DNA from: an uncultured Sphingobacteriaceae bacterium
Lineage (GTDB): Bacteria; Bacteroidota; Bacteroidia; Sphingobacteriales; Sphingobacteriaceae
DNA: 64,000 bases
Reading direction: 5' to 3'
NCBI GenBank assembly: GCA_946480915.1
Contig: CAMLLO010000003.1
Span: forward strand, 1-64,000
Positions 1,339-13,979 of this stretch are shown here, piece after piece. The notes beneath the pieces were generated by a model that worked only from the letters and a program-made list of their open reading frames with translations, was not told the origin of the DNA and ran no database searches. Within the stretch, counting starts at the first letter, position 1. Every line of letters starts with the position of its first letter. The translations under genes were made by a program, and so were the position numbers.

Positions 1339-1938
1339 ATGTATAAAAGCAATGAGATTCAGGAAAGTGTCCATATTCTAAATATACTTCGGGACAATCT
1401 TCTTAGTAATTTGAACGCCCTTTATGACTTACAAGAATACAATGTTAAGGAAGAAACCGTCAATAAAATTAACCATCTAACATTTGAAAGAGGGATTATA
1501 ATCATTGACAGTTACTTAGACGAGTATCATAAATTCTTCAGTAAACATTGCTCAGACTCTAATTCGAATAAACTAAGACAAGTTTATAAAGTCATAAAAA
1601 AGAAAATTAATCGATTTTCTGATATAAAAATATATAGAAATAATGTTGTGGCCCATAACCTCAGGGTGAATGGGAAGAATATTTATTTCCACGGCAACTT
1701 CAGAGGATATAAGGTTCCTCAAACAATAGTAGAATTTAATTTCATAGCGACATGTATTGACATTCTTACTGAGTTCATAAATAGAACCTATCCAAAAGAT
1801 TTCAATAACGCAGCTGATACAGTAAGTCAAAGGATGGCTGCCGATAGCACTCCTTACTTAACATCAATGACAAGGGAAGAAGCTGATGAAGAACTTATCG
1901 TCATTTCCAGTGAGATGTTGAAAATTCTTGAAAGTTAG
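1339..1938 (+). CDS. HEPN-like (AbiU2-type) putative RNase
   Basis: This 199-aa, mostly helical protein contains RNNVVAH (R100 to H106), which fits the Rx4-6H signature of HEPN ribonucleases. The surrounding layout of helices with the motif near the middle resembles the AbiU2-like HEPN group. HEPN proteins with this motif are commonly metal-independent RNases acting as toxins or defence effectors. No classical MNT antitoxin partner is adjacent. The next gene, 59 bp downstream on the same strand, encodes a PIN-domain protein, so the two may be co-transcribed. The family call rests on the motif and fold pattern only; substrate and partner are unknown. Confidence 0.6.
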   Translation: MYKSNEIQESVHILNILRDNLLSNLNALYDLQEYNVKEETVNKINHLTFERGIIIIDSYLDEYHKFFSKHCSDSNSNKLRQVYKVIKKKINRFSDIKIYRNNVVAHNLRVNGKNIYFHGNFRGYKVPQTIVEFNFIATCIDILTEFINRTYPKDFNNAADTVSQRMAADSTPYLTSMTREEADEELIVISSEMLKILES

Positions 1939-1997
1939 GCAACAGGCCTCCATAAATGTAACTTTGACAGATATCAACTAAAACAGTACCTCGACTT

Positions 1998-3023
1998 ATG
2001 GCAAGCATTTTTTTGGACAGCAACGCTCTTTTTTCTGACCCTCTTTTCAAAAGCTCCTTTGGTTCTTTGCTACTTGAATATGCCAAAGAGGGTAAGATAA
2101 AGCTTTTTATTTCTTCGATAGTCATTGACGAAATTTCTAATAACTATGAAAAGATTATAAGCAAGCACTTGCAAACAATAAAGCTCGAAGTCGAAAAGGT
2201 AAATAAGCTTCTTCAGGTTGAAACTTCTATAAAGCTTCCTACCCTTCACAACTTGAGGAAGGAAATCTCATCATTTTATAAATCATTAATATCTGACGGG
2301 GTTCTGATCGAGGTTCCCTACAGTAACGAGATTCTCCCAGAGCTGGTCAAGAGATCCATACACCGCATAAAGCCGTTTACTGAGAGAAAGCAGGAGTTTA
2401 GAGACGCCATAATTTGGCTTTCGTACAGTGAGGCAATTAGGAACTCGCAAATGAACAACTGCTTTTTCATAAGCAACAATAAAGAGGATTTCTGGGATTT
2501 GGATAAAAAAGGCCTGCACCCAGAGTTAAAGAGGGAAGCACCTAATATGAAGTTATATTCTAACTTTCAAGAGTTATGCACTTTGGAGAAGGTTTTTTTG
2601 AAAATTTCTACAGAAAAGAGATTTTCAAACTGGTTTCACAGTCTCCAACTCGATAACAATAAAATAGAAAAATACCTTAAGGGTGCAATCTGTGAAAAGG
2701 TACACGAACGAATAAAAAGATCAATCGCCAGGATGTCGCCTTCGGCTTACTTTTCAATTGATAACGGTATTTATTTTGACTTTAGCTTCGAATGGGACAG
2801 CTTAAAAGTGCTTACTTTCACGGCCTATCAACTTACTGATTTCGCTTCTATCGCTTGTGAAGTTCAGAGTAAAGCTAAAGCGGTTGTCCACACCAAAGGC
2901 TTAAAACACCGTGGATACTTCTATATTAAAACCGCGCTTTCAATAATTTTGACTGAAAACAGTGTCGATTTAGATGAGATTTATTCAACAGAGATTTCGG
3001 ACCTAGTAAAAGAGTCAATCTAA
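1998..3023 (+). CDS. PIN-domain protein (DUF4935-like) putative nuclease
   Basis: The first ~190 of 341 residues form a PIN domain. FLDSNAL supplies D7, VIDEIS supplies D44/E45, EFRDAIIW supplies D136 and ISNNKEDFW supplies D164, giving the full acidic set expected for metal-dependent RNase activity. The spacing and long helical insertion resemble DUF4935 (PIN-like) proteins. The remaining ~150 residues are an unassigned C-terminal domain. It follows the HEPN gene closely and in the same direction. PIN proteins of this size occur singly or in defence loci; no small antitoxin is visible. Active-site integrity is seen directly; biological role is inferred. Confidence 0.7.
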   Translation: MASIFLDSNALFSDPLFKSSFGSLLLEYAKEGKIKLFISSIVIDEISNNYEKIISKHLQTIKLEVEKVNKLLQVETSIKLPTLHNLRKEISSFYKSLISDGVLIEVPYSNEILPELVKRSIHRIKPFTERKQEFRDAIIWLSYSEAIRNSQMNNCFFISNNKEDFWDLDKKGLHPELKREAPNMKLYSNFQELCTLEKVFLKISTEKRFSNWFHSLQLDNNKIEKYLKGAICEKVHERIKRSIARMSPSAYFSIDNGIYFDFSFEWDSLKVLTFTAYQLTDFASIACEVQSKAKAVVHTKGLKHRGYFYIKTALSIILTENSVDLDEIYSTEISDLVKESI

Positions 3024-3944: not shown

Positions 3945-4092
3945 GAAGGGCCTCGAGCAACATAAACTAAGGGCAGGACTATCAGAACATAGCAGCGCCC
4001 CAGCACCTTTTCCAACCACCCCTAAAACATCCGCCCCCTTTTTGTGGTTCTATAGTATCATATCGCGATTACATATTTAGCAAACAGAACAA

Positions 4093-5040
4093 ATGACAAC
4101 AGAACCGTCTTTCTGGCAACGTCTTGGTATCCATGAATGGTTTTTGAATGATAGCGGCTCTGCACCTACCGAACCACAGGCACTAACACCAAACGTAGTC
4201 TACAAGTATATTATAGATAAATTTAAAGAGTCTATCGGGCAATTAACTTTTGCCGACCGGGTGGTTTTTTACCACGAATATATTATTAGTTTTAATCCTG
4301 ACGATTACCGCGAATTCATGGACAATAAAAAAGGCATTTTTGGTCTTATTGTTCAGGAGGCGGTAAAGAAGTTTTATGAAATATTGAATCAATACCGGGC
4401 AGAGGGAAAAACGGTTGAACCATCCAGCAGTAAATGGGTTTTTCGCTTTGTATCTCATCCTGATTACGCTCGCGGCGATAAAGGCTTTATCGGAAAACTC
4501 CTGCCCGGCGGAACGCATAAAGAAGAAAATTTAAGAGTCACGTTTATTCCCCGCCAAACGGGCGTTGCCGAAACTTTCGACGTGAATGAAGATATTTTGA
4601 AAGGCTTCAATTTTTATAGCGAAGGGTATTATGAAGTGCCATATGTAGAAGATTTAAAGTACGATGCAAGCAAGCTTCAAAATACCGAGCAGCCTGCACT
4701 GGCTCGCTTTGAAACGATACTGCCCGATAAAGCTTACAGAGGGCATAAAGTGGAATACTATATGAAGGATCCGGAAATTATTGTATCTGGCGATGAAGAA
4801 ACCCGTGAAGACTCGAATATTTTCAAAATTCCGTCGGAATGGGTGAATACTCCTCATTTATCTATTAAATTTAATAAGGCTGATGATAAATTCTACCTGG
4901 CTTCTTTCGGAGAGAAAACCATCGTTAACGAAAAAGAAGTTCAGAGAAGTGAAGCACATTCACCATCGTGGGTAGAACTTCCTATTAATTCGAGGATGAT
5001 TCTGAACGGAATTATTGGCGTCAATATATTTAAATCATAA
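4093..5040 (+). CDS. FhaA-like protein: FhaA N-terminal-type region plus degenerate FHA domain
   Basis: This 315-aa cytoplasmic protein opens an operon with a PP2C phosphatase and a SEDS/transpeptidase fusion. Residues ~35-130 resemble the N-terminal region of mycobacterial FhaA (HEYIISFNPDDYREF against the NEYIITL...DFEKL pattern there). Residues ~220-315 look like an FHA fold: TPHLSIKF, KTIVNEKEV and a final LNGIIGVNIF match the usual His, VNG and terminal strands. The G-R and Ser that normally bind phosphothreonine are not evident, so phosphopeptide binding may be weak or lost. No Ser/Thr kinase is encoded nearby. By analogy it may link phosphorylation state to the peptidoglycan synthase downstream; that is inference. 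Confidence 0.65.
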   Translation: MTTEPSFWQRLGIHEWFLNDSGSAPTEPQALTPNVVYKYIIDKFKESIGQLTFADRVVFYHEYIISFNPDDYREFMDNKKGIFGLIVQEAVKKFYEILNQYRAEGKTVEPSSSKWVFRFVSHPDYARGDKGFIGKLLPGGTHKEENLRVTFIPRQTGVAETFDVNEDILKGFNFYSEGYYEVPYVEDLKYDASKLQNTEQPALARFETILPDKAYRGHKVEYYMKDPEIIVSGDEETREDSNIFKIPSEWVNTPHLSIKFNKADDKFYLASFGEKTIVNEKEVQRSEAHSPSWVELPINSRMILNGIIGVNIFKS

Positions 5041-5041
5041 T

Positions 5042-5140
5042 ATGTCGCATTTACTATCAGTAGCGCTGCTTTTTATTTGTGTCTTTTTACTTGCAGCTCA
5101 TTTTAAGGACATAAAAAATACACATAAACGGAATGGCTGA
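5042..5140 (+). CDS. 32-aa single-pass membrane peptide between FHA and PP2C genes
   Basis: An ATG one base after the FhaA-like stop opens a 32-codon frame: about 18 hydrophobic residues (LLSVALLFICVFLLAA), then a short basic tail HFKDIKNTHKRNG. Its stop at 5138-5140 lies inside the first codons of the PP2C gene, an 8-base overlap that suggests translational coupling. It sits where mycobacteria have fhaB, whose product begins with a membrane helix. Whether it is a real protein, a relic anchor or a coupling leader cannot be decided from sequence alone. Confidence 0.5.
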   Translation: MSHLLSVALLFICVFLLAAHFKDIKNTHKRNG

Positions 5141-6596
5141 AAACTTTTTTGGAATAACCGATACAGGTAGAGTACGCGATAACAACGAGGATGCCTTTAT
5201 TGCTAAGAAGGTGATGAACAATCGGTTCATTATTGCCTGTGCAATTGATGGAGTGGGAGGTTATTCGGGTGGAGAAATTGCCGCTGAGATTGCCCGCGAA
5301 TCTATATTTGAAAATTTCGCCAAACCCTCGGGCAATTTGATCGAGGCAATGAAAGCCTCGTTTATTCTTGCCAATCAGAAAATCTTTGCCGAAAAGCTTC
5401 AAAATAAAGAACATAGTAAAATGGCTTGTGTGTTAACACTAGCCGTGGTCGACGTTCAAAACAACCAGTTCCATTATGCTCATGTTGGCGATACAAGGCT
5501 GTATTTATTGCGGGATCATTCGCTGGTAAAAGTAACTAAAGACCACTCGTTCGTGGGCTTTTTAGAAGATTCGGGTCGCCTGGATGAAAATGCAGCCATG
5601 AAACACCTGAAGCGCAATGAAATAAATAAAGCTTTAGGCTTCGGCCGGGAAATCGAATCGCAGGATGATTACATTGAAACAGGCAGCTCGCCTTTTTTAC
5701 CGGGAGATATGCTTTTGCTTTGCAGCGATGGCCTCACCGATATGGTAAATAAGGAGTCAATAACTTCAATCGTTACCAATTCATCGTCCTTAGAAGAGAA
5801 AGCCACCCAGCTTGTTGAAATGGCTAACAAAAATGGGGGGCGAGATAACATTACCGTTGTACTGGTGCAAAATGATGCAACTTCGTCCTGGCAGGCAACT
5901 CCCTCGGTGGGAAGCCTTCATGAGGCTCAAAAAAAAAATTTGAAGCCGACTGATGAGCCCGCATCAAATAATAATAACCCTGCACCCGCGAAAACCGAAA
6001 ATAAGCCTGATCATAAATTGAGTGTGAAATCGCAAAGCAATCCTCAGATAAATAAAATTCTGGCTTTTCTCTGCATTTTCTTTCTGGCGACATCCGCGTT
6101 TTTATTATGGCGAAATATTAAGCAAAAAGCCTTCGCCGAGGCTCCGGAATCCATTAAGGCTGATACAATCCGAACATCTGAGGAAATTAAACTGCAAGAA
6201 GCTATCAATACCCTAAAGGGTGATACACTCGTTCTATCGGATTCAATTTTCAATAAACCCATTCTCCTTTCCGATACATTAACCATCCATCAGGATTCTC
6301 TATTCATTCTAGCCCGAGGAAAAATAATCATCCAGGGCGACTCGCTGTTTAAAGGACCCGCGATAGCGCTCTCACCCGACTCCCGATTTATACTTCTGGA
6401 TGGAGTGCAATTCGAAAATTTCGACATAGCTGTATCCGCGCAAAACGATGCTTTATATCTGCGTAATGTGCAGTTTGTCAATTGCAAATGGCCGGTTCAA
6501 AACTATTTTATGTTCCCCGATAAGCAATACGTCACTGGCCGCCTGGCCGGATCTTACTTTTTTAGAACTGATTCTTTAAATACCCAGAACAGATAA
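5133..6596 (+). CDS. Membrane-anchored PP2C Ser/Thr phosphatase (PstP-like)
   Basis: Residues 1-245 are a PP2C domain with the metal-binding motifs intact: RDNNEDAF (E19, D20), AIDGVGGYSGGE (D39), HVGDTRLYLL, LLLCSDGLTD (D199) and GGRDNITVVLV (D238). A basic, Pro/Asn-rich linker leads to one membrane helix (~306-327, ILAFLCIFFLATSAFLLW). The final ~150 residues are repeated short strands, like a small beta-helix, predicted to lie outside the cytoplasm. Cytoplasmic phosphatase, one helix and external domain is also the plan of mycobacterial PstP. It starts within the small peptide gene and ends one base before the SEDS-PBP gene. It probably dephosphorylates proteins controlling cell-wall synthesis; its cognate kinase is not in the window. 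Confidence 0.9.
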   Translation: MAENFFGITDTGRVRDNNEDAFIAKKVMNNRFIIACAIDGVGGYSGGEIAAEIARESIFENFAKPSGNLIEAMKASFILANQKIFAEKLQNKEHSKMACVLTLAVVDVQNNQFHYAHVGDTRLYLLRDHSLVKVTKDHSFVGFLEDSGRLDENAAMKHLKRNEINKALGFGREIESQDDYIETGSSPFLPGDMLLLCSDGLTDMVNKESITSIVTNSSSLEEKATQLVEMANKNGGRDNITVVLVQNDATSSWQATPSVGSLHEAQKKNLKPTDEPASNNNNPAPAKTENKPDHKLSVKSQSNPQINKILAFLCIFFLATSAFLLWRNIKQKAFAEAPESIKADTIRTSEEIKLQEAINTLKGDTLVLSDSIFNKPILLSDTLTIHQDSLFILARGKIIIQGDSLFKGPAIALSPDSRFILLDGVQFENFDIAVSAQNDALYLRNVQFVNCKWPVQNYFMFPDKQYVTGRLAGSYFFRTDSLNTQNR

Positions 6597-6597
6597 A

Positions 6598-9500
6598 ATG
6601 ATAGAGGAAACTCCTTTAAAAAATAGACGAAAAATTGAACGCCTGTTTCTGATTATGATCTCAGCAGTGCTGGCATTACTGTTTTTTTCTCTTTATGCTT
6701 TTTTACAACGCGACTTTAAAGATGTGAGCAGCCGTTTAGCTGAGGGAACCATGTTTAACCTGAACAGCAAAGATGCCGAGGGAATCCGCACGCTGATCAG
6801 AAAGGGCTATTATTTTGACGATAACAAAGACATCGATCTGATCTATTCTGCGGTGGCCAAGGGATTAGGTAAGGACCAAAAAGCGATCGATAATATTGGC
6901 GAATTAAACAAACGAAGATTTTTTATCGATGCCGACGAAGCTTTCATAAATGGAGGCGAATCTTTCAGAAAGCGCGTAATGGTTTCTCGCTCCATGCTTG
7001 GTTTTACCGGAGATGATTCCGTCGCTTTTGCGCTAGAAAGAACGAAACCACAACAGTTATCCGCGAGCACTAACGTGGGGCTGGGGAAATATTCAATCTC
7101 TGGTGAGATCCGGAACAAAGAAAAACAAGCCGTTCAGGGAGTATTGGTTCGGTTGGAAATGATTTTGCCACAAGATAGCGCTTACAGTGAAACAGTAACC
7201 GAGGTAGAAACCGAACGTGTAGAAAAGGGACCAGGCTTTAAACGGGTTTACCTTCTCGATTCACTTAAAAACAAGCAGCTAGAATCTCTGACAGCATATG
7301 CCCGTACAGATGCCCAGGGAAAATATACATTCACAAACCTTCCGGATGATAAAGCATTTAAAATTCTGCCCCTGCAACCGGGTTTCCAGTTCGGAATATC
7401 AAAAGGTGTGCAGGCTTTGGATAAAAATGAAAAACTAAACTTTCTGCGCGAGCCACATACTATCCGCCTGCTATCAACCCGCGATTTCAACATCCTGAAA
7501 AAGGAAGGCTCCTTGATTGTTCGCACTCCTGACGAATTCAATCAATGGTTCTGGATTATTATGGGATGCTTTTTTGGTGGCTTCCTGATCGTACACTTCT
7601 TGCTTTCATTCAAATTCCAGTACGCAGATCAACTAATTCTGCCCTTCGTAATGCTGCTTACGGGTCTTTCCATATTAACATTATTAAGTCTTCAGGATCC
7701 GCTTCGCGATAGGTTTTTAGCCAAAGATACCCTGCTTTACCTCGGTTTAGGCTTACTGGGTATCTGTGTGATGATGTTTGTTAAAATACGGAAGTTCAAC
7801 GTAGACAACAGTCTTTACAGGATGTTTGTCTTTAAAAGCAATCGCAAGGCGGCCAATGGATGGCCATGGGCGGTTTCGGCAGTAATTCTTCTGGTTTTAA
7901 CAATCGTGTTCGGAACTGGTCCGGAGGGAAGTGGTGTGAAAGTGAATCTCTTCGGGTTTCAGCCAAGCGAGATAGTAAAGTATCTGATCATACTTTTTCT
8001 GGCAGGTTTCTTCGCTACGAACGAACGCTTTATCAGCGAATACAGAAGCTATCGCAAGCGCTGGTCTTTCTTCTACTTTGCCCTCGTTTCAATAGTGGTT
8101 TCAATTCTTCTGTTCCTTGTGTTGGGAGACTTGGGTCCGGCGATGGTGGTATGTTTTACATTCATCGTATTATTCTCTTTCTGCCGCGGAGATTTTATGT
8201 TTATGATCGGCTCGGTAGTGCTCTACATTCTGGCCGCCTGGGTGTTAAATAACATTTGGCTGGCTACAGCAATTACAGTAGCCATCGTAGTGCTGGCCAT
8301 GATTTTCCAGCGCAAGCAAATCAGCGAATCCGCGATTATGGCTCTTGTAATTATCGCCGGATTTTTGCTCATTGATCAAATTCCATATCTCGACCAGGTT
8401 TTCCCGGGACCGGTTAAACGTTTAACCGAGCGCAAAGCAATCTGGCAAGACGCCTGGAATAACGAAGTGTACGGCGGTGACCACGTTGCAAATGGAATCT
8501 GGGCTATGTCTAGCGGGGGTGTTACCGGACAAGGAATAGGACAAGGCTTCGCTAAAACTATTCCCGAGGCCCATACCGATATGATTTTGCCGGCCATCGG
8601 TGAAGAGTTTGGATGGGCGGGCATCGTATGTATCTTCATTCTGTTCCTGATCTATTTACATCGTTCGATTATTATCGGGCGCCAAACGGGAATGCCATTC
8701 CTGTTTTACCTGTCGGCCGGAATTGGTGTAAGTACATTTGTACAATTTCTTTTGATTGCCGGAGGCTCAACCGGAGCCCTTCCGTTGTCAGGTGTTTCTT
8801 TGCCTTTTGTTAGTTACGGTGGCTCTTCCATGGTGGCCAATTTCCTTGCCGCCGGATTTTTGCTTTCAACATCCCTGATAAAGGGTACAGAAGTACAAAT
8901 GAGTTTTGTGACAAAACAACATGATAAAAACCTGGTTCCGGCCCTGGCCGCCGCATTAATTGGAGTGGTGCTGCTCACGGTGAATGTTTCCCGGTATTTA
9001 TTTAACAATAAAAAATGGGTGGTTCAGCCGGCTTTAGTTGCCGATCGAAGCGGAATGCGCATGTTTAGTTACAATCCCCGAATTGCCATTTTGATGAACA
9101 GGCTGCAGGCCGGTTCTTTATACGATCGTGAAGGCAGAATTCTGGCAACCAGTAAGCCCGAGCTAATTAAACAGCAACAGGGATTATTACGTGCGTCCGG
9201 AGGCTTGAATTTTGATATCGATTCGGTTATACATAAACGCCTGGACCGGTACTATCCTTTCGCTGAAGATACCTTCTTCTGGATTGGCGATGCGAATACA
9301 GGTATTTTCAACGGCAGCACGAACGGATATTTTGCCGAGTACCAGCATGCAGCCGAACTTAGAGGCTTTGAAACGCCTACCGAAAAAGTTATTGCAATAG
9401 CGAGCGCTTATCGCGAAGACCGCTTTTTAGCACGGGGAGTTAAAGAAATGACGGTAGTGAAGAAAGACTACAGTGAATTAGCTCCTTTATTGCTCGCCGG

Positions 9501-10812
9501 AATTAACAGCAGCAAGGTAGAACAATTTAAAAAGCGAAACCGGGATGTTCAATTAACCATTGATGCCCGTCTGCAAACCAATATACAACGGTCGATTGCC
9601 AGTGATGACTCTTTAAAGGACAACCGCGTGTCTGTTGTAATTATGGAGGATAATACCGGAGACGTTCTTGTGTCTGCAAATTATCCTTTGCCACCTGTAA
9701 ATAGCTGGGAGCAAATGACCATGACCATGGCCGAACAGAATCAGTTATCGCAATGGATGACCACCCGGGATCTGGGTTTTACCTACGCTACACAACCTGG
9801 CTCCACCGCTAAAATAGCCACTACCATAGCCGCTTTTAATAAACTGGGCATGGCGGCTACACAGAAAAACTACATGGTAAGTTCGGATGAAAGAATACGT
9901 ACAAAAGGGATAGAGCCTGATGAGACCGGGAAAATAAGTCTCGAACGCGCATTGGTAAAATCAAATAACGTTTACTTTATTAAACTTGCAAACGAAGAGA
10001 AACTGCAGGAAGAAATGGTGAACGTGTATTTAAAAACAGGGATGTTTTTAAGAGGTGTTGGTGGCTTTTTTTACGAGAAAGATGGACAGGACCTGCAGCA
10101 GGAAAACAAATGGCGCGAATTATGGCGCAACACAGAATTCAAAACGAAGCCGCGGTACGACCCGAACAACATTCGGCGGACACGCGCGAAAGGCATTTCG
10201 GGAATGGCTTGGGGGCAGGGTGAACTAATTGCCACTCCGGCAGCAGTTGCACGCATGGCGGCAGGCGTGGCAAATCACGGAAATATGGTAGAAAACCGGT
10301 ATGTTTTAAAGGTTCACAATTCCATACAAGGACTTAAAGGCAGTACAAAAGTTACTAAAGAGCCGCAATTTGCTGATGTAATTAAACAATACATGATTGA
10401 GCAAAGCGCGCCAAAAGTATATACCCTCGGCATTTCAGTTGCCGGTAAAACCGGAACACCCGAACGGATCTGGAAAAAAGAGCGCATAAATGATGGCTGG
10501 TATGTGTTTTTTGCTCCGAAAGCGAAAGGCGAAGGACATATAGTTGTTTGTGTCAGAGTTGAGTCTACAAAAGGGTCTAGCGATGCGGTCGCCTTAGCGG
10601 GAAAACATATAATACCCATCCTACTGCAAAAGGGATTAATAAAAAGCTTTTCAACTACACAGGCAATACCTGGCCAGGCTATTCCGGGAATGGGCATGCC
10701 CGCCGGGACTATAATTTCGCCAGCTCCGGTGGCAGATACGATGGTACCACCTGTAGCAGTACCTCAGGCAGACGCTGCACCAGCTCGAAGAGATAGTGTG
10801 AATGGCAACTGA
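6598..10812 (+). CDS. RodA/FtsW (SEDS) glycosyltransferase fused to class B penicillin-binding transpeptidase
   Basis: This 1404-aa protein joins two enzymes that normally form a complex. An N-terminal membrane helix (~17-37) is followed by an external region (~40-310) with a carboxypeptidase-regulatory-like beta domain (YSISGEIRNKEKQAVQGVLV ... TDAQGKYTFTNLP). Residues ~318-780 are a polytopic SEDS domain, recognisable by VYGGDHVANGIWAMSSGG and LPLSGVSLPFVSYGGSSM. After another helix, residues ~820-1350 carry transpeptidase motifs: SxxK at ~S1069 (PGSTAKIA), SxN at ~S1122 (KSNNVYF) and KTG at ~K1284 (AGKTGTPE). The tail is Pro/Ala-rich. It should polymerise and crosslink peptidoglycan. The gene begins one base after the PP2C stop, so the operon is tight. 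Whether it replaces RodA/PBP2 or is accessory is unknown. Confidence 0.93.
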   Translation: MIEETPLKNRRKIERLFLIMISAVLALLFFSLYAFLQRDFKDVSSRLAEGTMFNLNSKDAEGIRTLIRKGYYFDDNKDIDLIYSAVAKGLGKDQKAIDNIGELNKRRFFIDADEAFINGGESFRKRVMVSRSMLGFTGDDSVAFALERTKPQQLSASTNVGLGKYSISGEIRNKEKQAVQGVLVRLEMILPQDSAYSETVTEVETERVEKGPGFKRVYLLDSLKNKQLESLTAYARTDAQGKYTFTNLPDDKAFKILPLQPGFQFGISKGVQALDKNEKLNFLREPHTIRLLSTRDFNILKKEGSLIVRTPDEFNQWFWIIMGCFFGGFLIVHFLLSFKFQYADQLILPFVMLLTGLSILTLLSLQDPLRDRFLAKDTLLYLGLGLLGICVMMFVKIRKFNVDNSLYRMFVFKSNRKAANGWPWAVSAVILLVLTIVFGTGPEGSGVKVNLFGFQPSEIVKYLIILFLAGFFATNERFISEYRSYRKRWSFFYFALVSIVVSILLFLVLGDLGPAMVVCFTFIVLFSFCRGDFMFMIGSVVLYILAAWVLNNIWLATAITVAIVVLAMIFQRKQISESAIMALVIIAGFLLIDQIPYLDQVFPGPVKRLTERKAIWQDAWNNEVYGGDHVANGIWAMSSGGVTGQGIGQGFAKTIPEAHTDMILPAIGEEFGWAGIVCIFILFLIYLHRSIIIGRQTGMPFLFYLSAGIGVSTFVQFLLIAGGSTGALPLSGVSLPFVSYGGSSMVANFLAAGFLLSTSLIKGTEVQMSFVTKQHDKNLVPALAAALIGVVLLTVNVSRYLFNNKKWVVQPALVADRSGMRMFSYNPRIAILMNRLQAGSLYDREGRILATSKPELIKQQQGLLRASGGLNFDIDSVIHKRLDRYYPFAEDTFFWIGDANTGIFNGSTNGYFAEYQHAAELRGFETPTEKVIAIASAYREDRFLARGVKEMTVVKKDYSELAPLLLAGINSSKVEQFKKRNRDVQLTIDARLQTNIQRSIASDDSLKDNRVSVVIMEDNTGDVLVSANYPLPPVNSWEQMTMTMAEQNQLSQWMTTRDLGFTYATQPGSTAKIATTIAAFNKLGMAATQKNYMVSSDERIRTKGIEPDETGKISLERALVKSNNVYFIKLANEEKLQEEMVNVYLKTGMFLRGVGGFFYEKDGQDLQQENKWRELWRNTEFKTKPRYDPNNIRRTRAKGISGMAWGQGELIATPAAVARMAAGVANHGNMVENRYVLKVHNSIQGLKGSTKVTKEPQFADVIKQYMIEQSAPKVYTLGISVAGKTGTPERIWKKERINDGWYVFFAPKAKGEGHIVVCVRVESTKGSSDAVALAGKHIIPILLQKGLIKSFSTTQAIPGQAIPGMGMPAGTIISPAPVADTMVPPVAVPQADAAPARRDSVNGN

Positions 10813-10905
10813 GAAATTTTAAATCGGTGACATGGATATTTGATTCTAATCAATTATTTGAGACGAAAGGTCTGTGTACTGGCAATTCAGCTTTTTCATA
10901 AATCT

Positions 10906-10946
10906 TAAATTATCTTATTTACACAACAAATAAATAAGATAATTTA
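10906..10946. promoter_or_regulatory. Perfect 15-bp inverted repeat upstream of a small gene
   Basis: The arms TAAATTATCTTATTT (10906-10920) and AAATAAGATAATTTA (10932-10946) are perfectly complementary around an 11-base loop. The element ends five bases before the next ATG. AT-only arms and no following T-run fit an operator or translational-control hairpin better than a terminator, though it could also end the upstream operon. Confidence 0.55.
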
Positions 10947-10951
10947 GCCGT

Positions 10952-11179
10952 ATGAGAGACTTTGTTGTTGAGTATGAATTTAGGAAGTATTTCACCTTTT
11001 TAGAAAGTAGCGTGGCAACTCCTGAACGTCTGGAGGTTAAACTGATAATGTACAAGACAGAGTACAGTATCTATAAAGACAAAGCCACAAATACCTGGCA
11101 CAACCATGTAAGTAGATTTGAAATGTCAAAGGGATTGTTAAATGCTGTGGGTGAAGTTTTAGATGAATTCCTGAAATAA
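10952..11179 (+). CDS. Conserved-looking 75-aa hypothetical protein
   Basis: A small, mixed-charge soluble protein with no signal peptide or membrane helix. It shows alternating strand-like segments (VVEYEFRKYF, LEVKLIMYKTEYSIYK) and a C-terminal helix ending VGEVLDEFLK. I do not recognise the family. The ATG follows immediately after a strong inverted repeat, which suggests its own regulation. Codon use looks like that of neighbouring genes, so it is likely real. Confidence 0.5.
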   Translation: MRDFVVEYEFRKYFTFLESSVATPERLEVKLIMYKTEYSIYKDKATNTWHNHVSRFEMSKGLLNAVGEVLDEFLK

Positions 11180-11666
11180 AGATATAAGAGCCTGAGCCGT
11201 AAAGCGAAAGAAATACCAGCAAATAAAATTACTGCCGAAAAACGTGTAAACAAAAAAAGTCTTCAAACGGGGAGGATGAAGACTTTTAACTAACCAATTA
11301 TAAACCTGAACAAAAGTAGCAATAATGCTATTGTTTCAAAATAATTTAACAAAAATTAACAATTTCATAATGAAAGTTCTTGATTGTTGAAAAGAAAAAA
11401 CCCCCACCTGAAGGGCGAGGGTTATACGTTTATATCTGGATAGTTCAGTTCCTAAAACTACATATTTTTTCCAAGTTTGCAAAAAATTTATTGTTAAGGT
11501 CCGCTAAATTGCGAAATTTTTAATTTCACGCAGGCTAGTCCATACCGGGAGATCTTAAAAAATATCAAAACCTGTAAAATAGGCTTCATCTGTAAATCAA
11601 CCGCTTTTTAAACTAAATAGTTATTATTGTGACAGAATAATCTATTAAACCTTTTACAGTCCTATT
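11180..11666 (+). other. Intergenic region with at least two stem-loops
   Basis: This 487-bp gap has no convincing ORF. Arms AAAAGTCTTC (11255-11264) and GAAGACTTTT (11278-11287) form a perfect 10-bp stem around a purine-rich loop AAACGGGGAGGAT. A second, imperfect hairpin lies near 11398-11425 (AACCCCCACC ... GAGGGTT). The rest is AT-rich and presumably contains the promoter of the fucosidase gene. The first hairpin exposes a GGGGAGGA loop, unlike a plain terminator, so a small RNA or leader is possible. Confidence 0.45.
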
Positions 11667-13979
11667 ATGAAGTCCATCAGGCTCTTTTCAATCTTTCTTT
11701 TGTGTTATATCAGTTCATCATCATTTGCACAAACAGTTTCCGACGAACTTAAGATATGGTTCAATCATCCTGCGGCAAGCTGGAACGAGGCTTTGCCCGT
11801 GGGTAATGGAAGACTGGGAGCGATGGTGTTTGGTTATCCATTATCAGAGAGACTTCAGCTTAATGAAGAAACGGTCTGGTCTGGTCAGCCTAAAGATTTT
11901 GTGAATCCAGAATCTAAAGGGGTGCTGCCTGAAGTTAGAAAACTTCTTTTCGAGGGGAAATATACCGAAGCTCAAAAGCTGGCGCAGGAAAAGATGATGG
12001 GAAAACAAACGGACCTGGGAACTTATCAAACTCTTGGCGACATGCTTATTGATATGGAAATTCCAAAGGATAAGGATGTTTCAAATTACCGCAGGGAATT
12101 GGATCTTGAAACGGCCATAGCCAAAGTGGTATTTCGGGCAGATGATATTACATATACCCGCGAAATATTTTCTTCGAAACCTGGCGAAGCAATTTTGGTG
12201 AGATTAACGGCAAGCAAACCCGGAGCCTTAACATTTAATCTAAAGCTTCAGCGACCAGGAAATAAGGCCATAATCGCATATTCGGGAAATGGTATCAGCA
12301 TGTCTGAACACGTTGACAATGGGAACGGAGTGAAACTGGTATCGAAAGTCGGCTTGGTGAATGAAGGAGGCACAGTTCAGGCAACGTCGGGCAATATTAG
12401 GGTGGAGAAGGCAAATTCGGTTACAATTTATTTAACAGCAAACACAGATTATTGGAAAGGCAATCCGGAGCAACTTTCTTCAACACAATTGGGCAATGCC
12501 CTGAAGATATCTTACGAGAAACACCTTAAAGATCATATCGCCGATTATCAGAAGTATTTTAAGCGGCTTGATCTGGATTTCGGATCGACAAATGCTATTT
12601 ACTTTCCTACTGATTCAAGGCTTACGGCTTTGCAAAAAGGGAATATAGATCCGCAACTGATAAAACTTTACTACCAGTTCGGGCGATATCTTTTAATCAG
12701 CAGTTCGCGGCCGGGAGATTTACCGGCAAATTTGCAAGGTATATGGTCGGATGGATTATCGGCCCCCTGGTCTGCTGATTATCATATCAACATTAACATC
12801 CAGATGAATTACTGGCTGGCAGAACAGACAAATTTATCGGAGATGCATAAACCATTTTTAGATTTTATTGATGCACTTCGACCTGACGGCAGAAAAACCG
12901 CCAGAGACATGTATGGAATGAAAGGAATTGTAGCGCACTTTGCAACGGATGTATGGCATCATACCGAAACTGCCGGAAACGTTCAGTATGCAATGTGGCC
13001 AATGGGCTTGGGCTGGAGTGCGCAGCATTTATGGGAACATTACCTTTTTACAGAGGATAAAAAAGCTTTAGCTGAACAGGGATACCCAATAATGAAAGAA
13101 GCCTCGGAATTTTATGCCGACTGGCTTGTAGAAAATCCGCTGACTAAACAGCTTGTTTCGGGACCTTCCACTTCTCCGGAAAATACTTTCCTAACGAAAA
13201 GCGGTAAAAAGGCGACGATGGTGATGGGGCCAACGATGGATCATATGATTATTCGTGACCTGATGGAAAACACCATCGCAGCAAGTAAGGTGTTAAACAA
13301 AGATGCTGCGTTCCGACGGAAGCTTGAAGATATTCTAACTCGTTTAGCTCCTACTAAGATTGGAAGCGATGGCAGGATCATGGAGTGGACAGAGGAGTTT
13401 AAGGAACCTGAGCCGGGGCACAGGCACATTTCACATTTGTTTGGATTGCATCCCGGAAGGCAGATAACTGCTCAAAAAAATCCGGAACTTTTAGCAGCAG
13501 CCCGGAAAACCATAGAATACCGCCTGGCAAATGGCGGCGGCCACACCGGCTGGAGTCGGGCGTGGATTATTAATTTCTTTGCGAGGCTGCAGGACAGCGA
13601 GGAAGCATACAATAACCTGATGGCGCTTTTACAAAAGTCAACCCTGCCTAATCTTTTTGATACTCATCCGCCCTTTCAGATCGATGGTAATTTTGGCGCT
13701 ACCGCAGGTATCACGGAAATGCTGTTACAGAGCCACGCCGGCGAAGTGCATTTACTGCCGGCCTTACCCTCTGCCTGGCCGAAAGGTTTTATCCATGGTC
13801 TTTGTGCACGTGGGGGATTTGAACTGGACATTAACTGGGAAAACGGAAAGCTTAGCAAAGTATCTGTTCTTTCGAAACTGGGTAATAAATGTATAATCCG
13901 GTATGGCGAGAAGGTAATTACACTCCCGACCGAAAAAGGGAAGACCTATGTTTTTGATGGAGCTTTAGAACGCTTATAA
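11667..13979 (+). CDS. Secreted GH95-family alpha-L-fucosidase-like glycoside hydrolase
   Basis: The 770-aa product has a signal peptide (about residues 1-21, ending SSSFAQ), then the GH95 N-terminal beta domain starting LKIWFNHPAASWNEALPVGN with NGRLGAMVFG and LNEETVWSG. An alpha/alpha-barrel follows, with family motifs HININIQMNYWLAEQ, SGPSTSPENTF, GGGHTGWSRAW and FQIDGNFGATAGITEML; the NxN, Glu and Asp residues used by GH95 enzymes fall in these segments. The length is normal for the family. GH95 members hydrolyse terminal alpha-L-fucosides, and some act on galactosides. The gene stands alone, with no SusC/D pair beside it, so the natural glycan is unknown. It is probably periplasmic. Confidence 0.9.
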   Translation: MKSIRLFSIFLLCYISSSSFAQTVSDELKIWFNHPAASWNEALPVGNGRLGAMVFGYPLSERLQLNEETVWSGQPKDFVNPESKGVLPEVRKLLFEGKYTEAQKLAQEKMMGKQTDLGTYQTLGDMLIDMEIPKDKDVSNYRRELDLETAIAKVVFRADDITYTREIFSSKPGEAILVRLTASKPGALTFNLKLQRPGNKAIIAYSGNGISMSEHVDNGNGVKLVSKVGLVNEGGTVQATSGNIRVEKANSVTIYLTANTDYWKGNPEQLSSTQLGNALKISYEKHLKDHIADYQKYFKRLDLDFGSTNAIYFPTDSRLTALQKGNIDPQLIKLYYQFGRYLLISSSRPGDLPANLQGIWSDGLSAPWSADYHININIQMNYWLAEQTNLSEMHKPFLDFIDALRPDGRKTARDMYGMKGIVAHFATDVWHHTETAGNVQYAMWPMGLGWSAQHLWEHYLFTEDKKALAEQGYPIMKEASEFYADWLVENPLTKQLVSGPSTSPENTFLTKSGKKATMVMGPTMDHMIIRDLMENTIAASKVLNKDAAFRRKLEDILTRLAPTKIGSDGRIMEWTEEFKEPEPGHRHISHLFGLHPGRQITAQKNPELLAAARKTIEYRLANGGGHTGWSRAWIINFFARLQDSEEAYNNLMALLQKSTLPNLFDTHPPFQIDGNFGATAGITEMLLQSHAGEVHLLPALPSAWPKGFIHGLCARGGFELDINWENGKLSKVSVLSKLGNKCIIRYGEKVITLPTEKGKTYVFDGALERL

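Follow-up and report, generated by a model that had tools for sequence, protein, structure and literature searches.

A 64,000-nucleotide (64-kb) stretch of DNA from an uncultured Sphingobacteriaceae bacterium (contig CAMLLO010000003.1, positions 1 to 64,000; hereafter the window) carries four tightly packed plus-strand genes that encode an FHA-domain protein (FHA1), a 32-amino-acid membrane peptide, a PP2C-type phosphatase and a fusion of a SEDS protein to a class B penicillin-binding protein (PBP). Examination of related genomes shows that these genes belong to a conserved block, arranged as FHA1, membrane micropeptide, PP2C and SEDS::PBP fusion, together with a second FHA protein (FHA2) and one to three Hanks kinases. 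Judged from sequence features, the block probably encodes a third peptidoglycan synthase of the SEDS-class B PBP kind, a single polypeptide run by a phosphorylation switch of its own. An initial annotation, made from the letters of the window, had described the gene set and its placing at 4093..10812, and this observation was confirmed: the genes are real and located as described. The features of the window are as follows.

4093..5040, plus strand: FHA1, 315 amino acids; N-terminal alpha-beta domain, C-terminal FHA fold and degenerate phosphothreonine site (25-row alignment, model and fold search)
5042..5140, plus strand: membrane micropeptide, 32 amino acids; single helix, tail HFxDIK (80 of 80 places; pN/pS)
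5133..6596, plus strand: PP2C-type Ser/Thr phosphatase; one membrane helix at about residues 305-329, outside domain C-terminal
6598..10812, plus strand: predicted SEDS glycosyltransferase::class B PBP transpeptidase fusion, 1404 amino acids; an N-terminal helix and a further region precede the SEDS part
10813..11666, no strand assigned: stretch where relatives have FHA2 and kinases, neither of which was found in the window
11667-13979, downstream of the fusion: GH95 glycosidase gene

A scan of genome contigs returned 180 places that encode a relative of FHA1, of which the best 80 (L001-L080) were kept; these come from Mucilaginibacter, Pedobacter, Daejeonella, Segetibacter, Flavisolibacter and other genera. 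FHA1 has 1714 homologues in the protein collection at E ≤ 0.001, and some of the 120 that were listed carry the UniRef name 'FHA domain-containing'. PP2C adjoins FHA1 in 79 of the 80 loci, L023 being without a PP2C match, and the fusion is present in 74. Genes further downstream were counted in the 72 loci in which the fusion is present and is followed by at least 900 nucleotides (nt). FHA2, a protein of about 260 amino acids, is the next gene after the fusion in 71 of these 72. Module-type Hanks kinases are located no more than 4 kb past the fusion in 60 of the loci, and ahead of FHA1 in 43. Taking both sides of the block together, a kinase was found in 69 of the 72 loci. The initial annotation had allowed that its reading would fall if the gene order were unique to this strain; the order proves to be widely conserved, and that objection fails. 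Two of the three loci without a kinase call, L013 and L052, have only 6 and 153 nt before FHA1. The third, L029, has a large sensor histidine-kinase gene inserted between the fusion and FHA2 (stretch L097, 8199-11603; translations read by eye), an arrangement of this one genome, and beyond the insertion the translations read as FHA2 and then a kinase. In two further loci a gene is split into two overlapping open reading frames (ORFs), namely the fusion in L053 (12508-16538) and PP2C in L003 (1917-3357). These splits are either frameshifts or sequencing errors; in each case the higher-scoring piece was used and the pieces were not joined.

The same association is evident when whole genomes are surveyed. 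FHA1 and FHA2 co-occur in an identical set of 49 of 151 genomes in an order sample, on the same strand and 5159-5914 nt apart; the FHA2 matches G345:C37:4221-5000 and G342:C3:594988-595773 contain one in-frame stop each. In the two genomes nearest to the window among those surveyed, G001 and G310, which are assigned to one genus and whose FHA1 proteins are 88% and 90% identical to that of the window, FHA2 and two kinases directly follow the fusion, and these block kinases are the only Pkinase matches in either genome at E ≤ 0.001. The position of the kinases varies between loci: they may follow FHA2, precede FHA1 or, in Spirosoma-type loci, lie between PP2C and the fusion. In all five of these distant loci (L096 and L147-L150) the order is FHA1, micropeptide, PP2C, kinase, kinase, fusion and FHA2.

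It had been proposed that the fusion represents rodA and pbpA merged into one gene. This was rejected, since all 14 genomes examined keep two further SEDS genes with transpeptidases of their own and the fusion halves fall into separate clades in trees. Each of the 14 encodes exactly three SEDS proteins, of 387-480, 420-468 and, for the fusion, 1335-1427 amino acids as judged by open frame. One of the two shorter genes lies beside a transpeptidase gene of ~640-760 amino acids and the other is a few kb from one of ~700-730 amino acids, arrangements that we take to be RodA/PBP2 and FtsW/FtsI, respectively, a naming supported by the trees for three genomes. Trees of the SEDS half and of the PBP half each place the fusion in a clade of its own with 100/100 support, apart from both RodA/PBP2 and FtsW/FtsI. 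Each tree was midpoint-rooted and comprised 16 rows, with seven fusions, RodA/PBP2 from four genomes, FtsW/FtsI from three, and E. coli sequences (the RodA and PBP2 rows of which are without their first residue), and no Actinobacteria. The rows labeled RodA_L154, RodA_L156 and RodA_L158 are FtsW by position, having been fetched with FtsI; their labels derive from the best E. coli match. Among 74 fusions of at least 1200 amino acids, including that of the window, the HTD motif is found in 71, SxxK in 72 and KTG in 71, and the window fusion has the SEDS catalytic Asp together with the PBP motifs SxxK, SxN and KTG. On the usual roles of these motifs, the fusion is a predicted SEDS-class B PBP peptidoglycan synthase in which catalytic motifs are mostly kept.

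The phosphatase and the kinases that could control such a synthase also mostly retain their characteristic motifs. The window phosphatase scores 207.4 bits against the Stp1/IreP family model NF033484, under its cut-off of 230, and has the metal-binding motifs NED18, DGVGG39, SDG198 and DNIT238, the patterns of which occur in 78, 77, 76 and 51, respectively, of 78 PP2C proteins of at least 400 amino acids. All nine kinases scanned match PF00069. The HGDxKxNN and DFG motifs are both present in each of 135 kinase ORFs (127 from L001-L080), and HRDxKxxN and DFG are found in all ten Spirosoma-type kinases. In most of the kinases a single strongly hydrophobic stretch follows the kinase domain, and they are therefore referred to here as membrane kinases.

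The two FHA proteins differ at the columns that we take to be the phosphothreonine site, based on the alignment and on what is known of FHA domains. In FHA1 the Arg column is Gly in all 81 sequences, and the Ser column is Asn in 73, Ser in five and Asp in three, which bears out the suggestion of the initial annotation that the FHA domain of the 4093-5040 product is without phosphothreonine-binding residues. Both Arg and Ser are retained in all five Spirosoma-type FHA1 proteins. In FHA2, all 74 rows (two of which repeat a locus) have Arg155, Ser186 and His189, while Asn214 is present in 73, the one other row being cut short; PF00498 was matched in 34 of 34 FHA2 rows. A structure model of FHA1 (mean pLDDT 78.5) shows the FHA beta-sandwich fold at residues 198-315.

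A hydrophobic ORF of 24-45 amino acids starts soon after FHA1 in 78 of the 80 loci, the two exceptions having 143 or 148 nt in between; across the 80 places its HFxDIK tail is nearly constant. The micropeptide also occurs in G310 and G047, in each of the five Spirosoma-type loci and on plasmid NZ_CP089545.1 of Spirosoma oryzicola. In the five Spirosoma-type loci it has 23-27 amino acids and ends in HFxxLP, as does the plasmid copy; it does not appear in the gene table of the plasmid as listed, a table that is incomplete. Between the window and L001, the proportion of synonymous differences (pS) is 0.575 and that of nonsynonymous differences (pN) is 0.079. Among 58 sequences of exactly 32 amino acids, the median pN/pS is 0.368 in the micropeptide's own frame (572 pairs with pS 0.1-0.7), compared with values of 0.829 and 1.523 for the remaining two frames, where a wider pair set was used (all pairs with pS > 0.05). 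We therefore take the micropeptide, on this pattern of substitution, to be a coding gene under selection.

In the mechanism that we propose, the membrane kinases would phosphorylate themselves, FHA2 or a cytoplasmic part of the synthase. FHA2, in which the phosphothreonine residues are kept, would bind the phosphorylated partner and switch or place the synthase, and PP2C would undo the phosphorylation. FHA1, with the degenerate site of this lineage, would more likely serve as an unchanging scaffold. The micropeptide, a putative membrane partner whose charged C-terminus would face inwards, might anchor it. The fusion may then add wall material under particular conditions, alongside the normal RodA/PBP2 and FtsW/FtsI pairs. 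However, several observations weigh against this interpretation. Further kinases are encoded outside the block in several genomes, and from the window locus alone the switch is incomplete, as no FHA2 or kinase was found there. Some motifs are less constant than the others, with SxN in 66 and FQPSE in 55 of the 74 fusions and the last PP2C motif in only 51 of the 78 phosphatases. The kinases of the two lineages differ both in their catalytic loop (HGD versus HRD) and in their place in the block, which could mean that the kinases are only loosely associated with it. Finally, the E. coli sequences form long branches in the trees, a long-branch warning extends to the fusion clade, and the joining of E. 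coli FtsW to the fusion may be false.

The initial annotation called the module kinase-less. This holds for the window, but not for the family, given the kinases beside the block in 69 of 72 loci. A tblastn search of the 64 kb with FHA2 and the two kinases of L001 gave no match at E < 1, and a phmmer search with three kinases and two FHA2 proteins, drawn from both lineages, against the window's 395 segments of at least 50 amino acids gave none at E ≤ 1. We infer that the genome of the window has lost FHA2 and the kinases or carries them elsewhere, or that an assembly error severed them from the block, and our first guess is that a rearrangement or an assembly accident accounts for the kinase-less state. 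The specific form of this explanation, in which a genome rearrangement or contig chimera removed the FHA2-kinase block from its place downstream of 10812, seems to us slightly favored; it concerns the window copy only and is compatible with a phosphorylation-controlled synthase. DNA similarity to G001 and G310 stops at window positions 10644-10650, only ~4019-10650 is common to the three, and both flanks of the window block are unlike the fetched stretches of the two genomes. A FAD-linked oxidase gene that also lies downstream of the window block has only matches of 26-29% identity in G001 and G310, and the 280 nt that separate the fusion from FHA2 in L001 offer a plausible break point. Against a break, no mobile gene was identified at the junction, where repeats were not searched for.

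Upstream of the block in the window are an HEPN_AbiU2 gene at 1339-1938 (PF18734, 27.3 bits against a cut-off of 26.8) and then a PIN_12 gene at 1998-3023. The interval 1339-3023 is possibly an HEPN-PIN defence or toxin-antitoxin pair.

The block is unevenly distributed. FHA1 is present in six of 296 genomes of a phylum sample, in 49 of 151 genomes from the order of G002 (matched to L002, Daejeonella lutea), in two of 149 from the order of G009 (matched to L025, Flavisolibacter ginsengisoli) and in five of 194 from the order of G263. The last survey used G263's own FHA1 as query, and G263 is called Spirosoma-type because this protein is 74.1% identical to the FHA1 of Spirosoma oryzicola. The S. 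oryzicola plasmid (Cytophagales; 136.7 kb) carries a complete block (L162, 6336-16892), annotated as FHA, PP2C, two Ser/Thr kinases, FtsW/RodA family and FHA, and it was the only match when 72,556 plasmid records were searched with FHA1. This patchy spread, together with the plasmid copy, suggests that the block is an accessory, transferable system for special conditions. A more far-reaching version, which we advance tentatively and regard as somewhat short of probable, is that of a self-contained, transferable and phosphorylation-gated third synthase: kinases without PASTA domains, FHA2 and PP2C would set its activity, FHA1 would be a phospho-independent scaffold, the membrane micropeptide of 23-35 amino acids would be an ancient and required subunit, and the whole, acting separately from the RodA and FtsW machines, would have arisen by convergence with the actinobacterial locus.

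Alternatively, the block could share an ancestral operon with the actinobacterial locus instead of having been assembled independently. The set of protein types is the same, and the N-domains of both FHA1 and FHA2 are predicted to run helix, strand, shorter helix, helix, strand, strand, with two additional short helices ahead of the N-domain in the FHA1 model. The solved N-domain of FhaA has a three-stranded sheet, two amphipathic helices and a short capping helix, and in the available part of that report (PMC6151718) the second helix is short. The numbers of main helices (three, the middle one shorter in our predictions) and of strands (three) are thus equal, and the alternation along the FhaA chain is not given in that part of the source. 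Against shared ancestry, the Pfam family FhaA_N (PF12401) was over cut-off in none of 15 genomes, with sub-threshold matches in three on contigs other than that of the block, although in the control set it matched C. glutamicum and S. acidocaldarius, in one case over cut-off. FhaA_N was likewise absent among the families listed for the 42 FHA1 and 34 FHA2 rows that made up the profile alignments. The FHA1 and FHA2 profiles barely align with each other (probability 2%), no PASTA domain was detected in nine kinases scanned (E ≤ 0.01), and the fusion halves stand as separate, deep clades in trees that hold no actinobacterial sequences. A search of PDB sequences with either FHA profile gave no match up to E 10; two peptide deformylase chains returned by a search with the single FHA1 sequence (E 0.62-0.78) were taken as chance. 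Three window proteins compared with defence models gave no match. In structure searches FHA domains filled the matches listed, and the absence from these of the FhaA N-domain entry 2LC0 is uninformative. We consider common ancestry doubtful. The N-domains of the two block proteins and of FhaA may be of similar build, and the homology to FhaA implied by the initial annotation is unproven, the N-domain matching only in its numbers of helices and strands. Of the two kinds of kinase that it had proposed to look for, Hanks kinases were found in the relatives, and PASTA domains were not found in the nine kinases scanned.

A further alternative is that general signalling is the task of FHA1, PP2C and the kinases, with which the synthase is merely co-transcribed. 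Kinases encoded elsewhere in several genomes could give PP2C many targets, and mycobacterial PstP acts globally, according to the available part of PMC6554272. Nevertheless, the block keeps its content together across genera that span several families, as it does in the distant Spirosoma-type loci and in the plasmid copy, and the Pkinase matches of G001 and G310 are confined to it; we judge this alternative unlikely. Least credible is a module that is kinase-less by nature, with FHA1, PP2C and the fusion using kinases encoded elsewhere or none. The failure to find FHA2 or kinases in the window and the end of DNA similarity at 10644-10650 would conform to it, but it is at odds with the FHA2 and sole kinase pair that follow the fusion in G001 and G310, with FHA2 as the next gene after the fusion in 71 of 72 loci, and with the presence of FHA2 in all 49 FHA1-carrying genomes of the order sample.

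Most of what is known of wall growth under kinase control comes from Actinobacteria and Firmicutes. If a phosphorylation-controlled third synthase is indeed what the block encodes, then a full kinase-phosphatase-FHA set acting on a dedicated SEDS-class B PBP synthase in Bacteroidota would extend this logic to a different type of envelope. The one-piece synthase is also a handy object for studying the joint activation of SEDS and PBP parts, and the micropeptide is a new candidate subunit. In the open-licence PubMed Central literature we found no account of the block or of a natural SEDS-PBP fusion in Bacteroidota, judging by the titles and abstract openings of the matches listed, a coverage outside which most subscription papers and preprints lie; the available part of PMC12088040 contains nothing on the block.

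Among known systems, the closest parallel is the actinobacterial locus fhaA-fhaB-pstP-rodA-pbpA-pknA-pknB. According to the available part of PMC6554272, linkage of pstP, rodA, pbpA and a PASTA kinase extends across the Actinobacteria, and the locus also includes fhaA and fhaB. Two FHA proteins, a PP2C, a SEDS protein, a class B PBP and kinases are likewise found together in the Bacteroidota relatives, although the window has one FHA protein and no kinase was found in it. The analogy with fhaA-pstP-rodA-pbpA was therefore a good one, and better than could be known from the window, as the relatives add the second FHA protein and the kinases. The Bacteroidota block differs in that SEDS and PBP are one gene, a membrane micropeptide is added, no PASTA domain occurs in the kinases scanned and FhaA_N is not over cut-off, and in that it supplies a third SEDS-class B PBP beside two others, is patchy in distribution and is once plasmid-borne. 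By analogy, the block may work like the actinobacterial locus; common descent is unproven. FhaA (Rv0020c) has 527 residues, ~300 of them between its two domains (available part of PMC6151718), whereas FHA1 has 315 in total, is without a sequence match to FhaA_N and no longer has R and S at its phosphothreonine site. The window phosphatase has the catalytic domain of Stp1/PstP-type PP2C proteins, but falls below the family cut-off and carries an additional domain after its one helix. Similar to the RodA/PBP2 and FtsW/FtsI pairs, the fusion has both catalytic parts with their motifs, and it is set apart from them as one polypeptide with an N-terminal extension that forms a separate clade in both halves.

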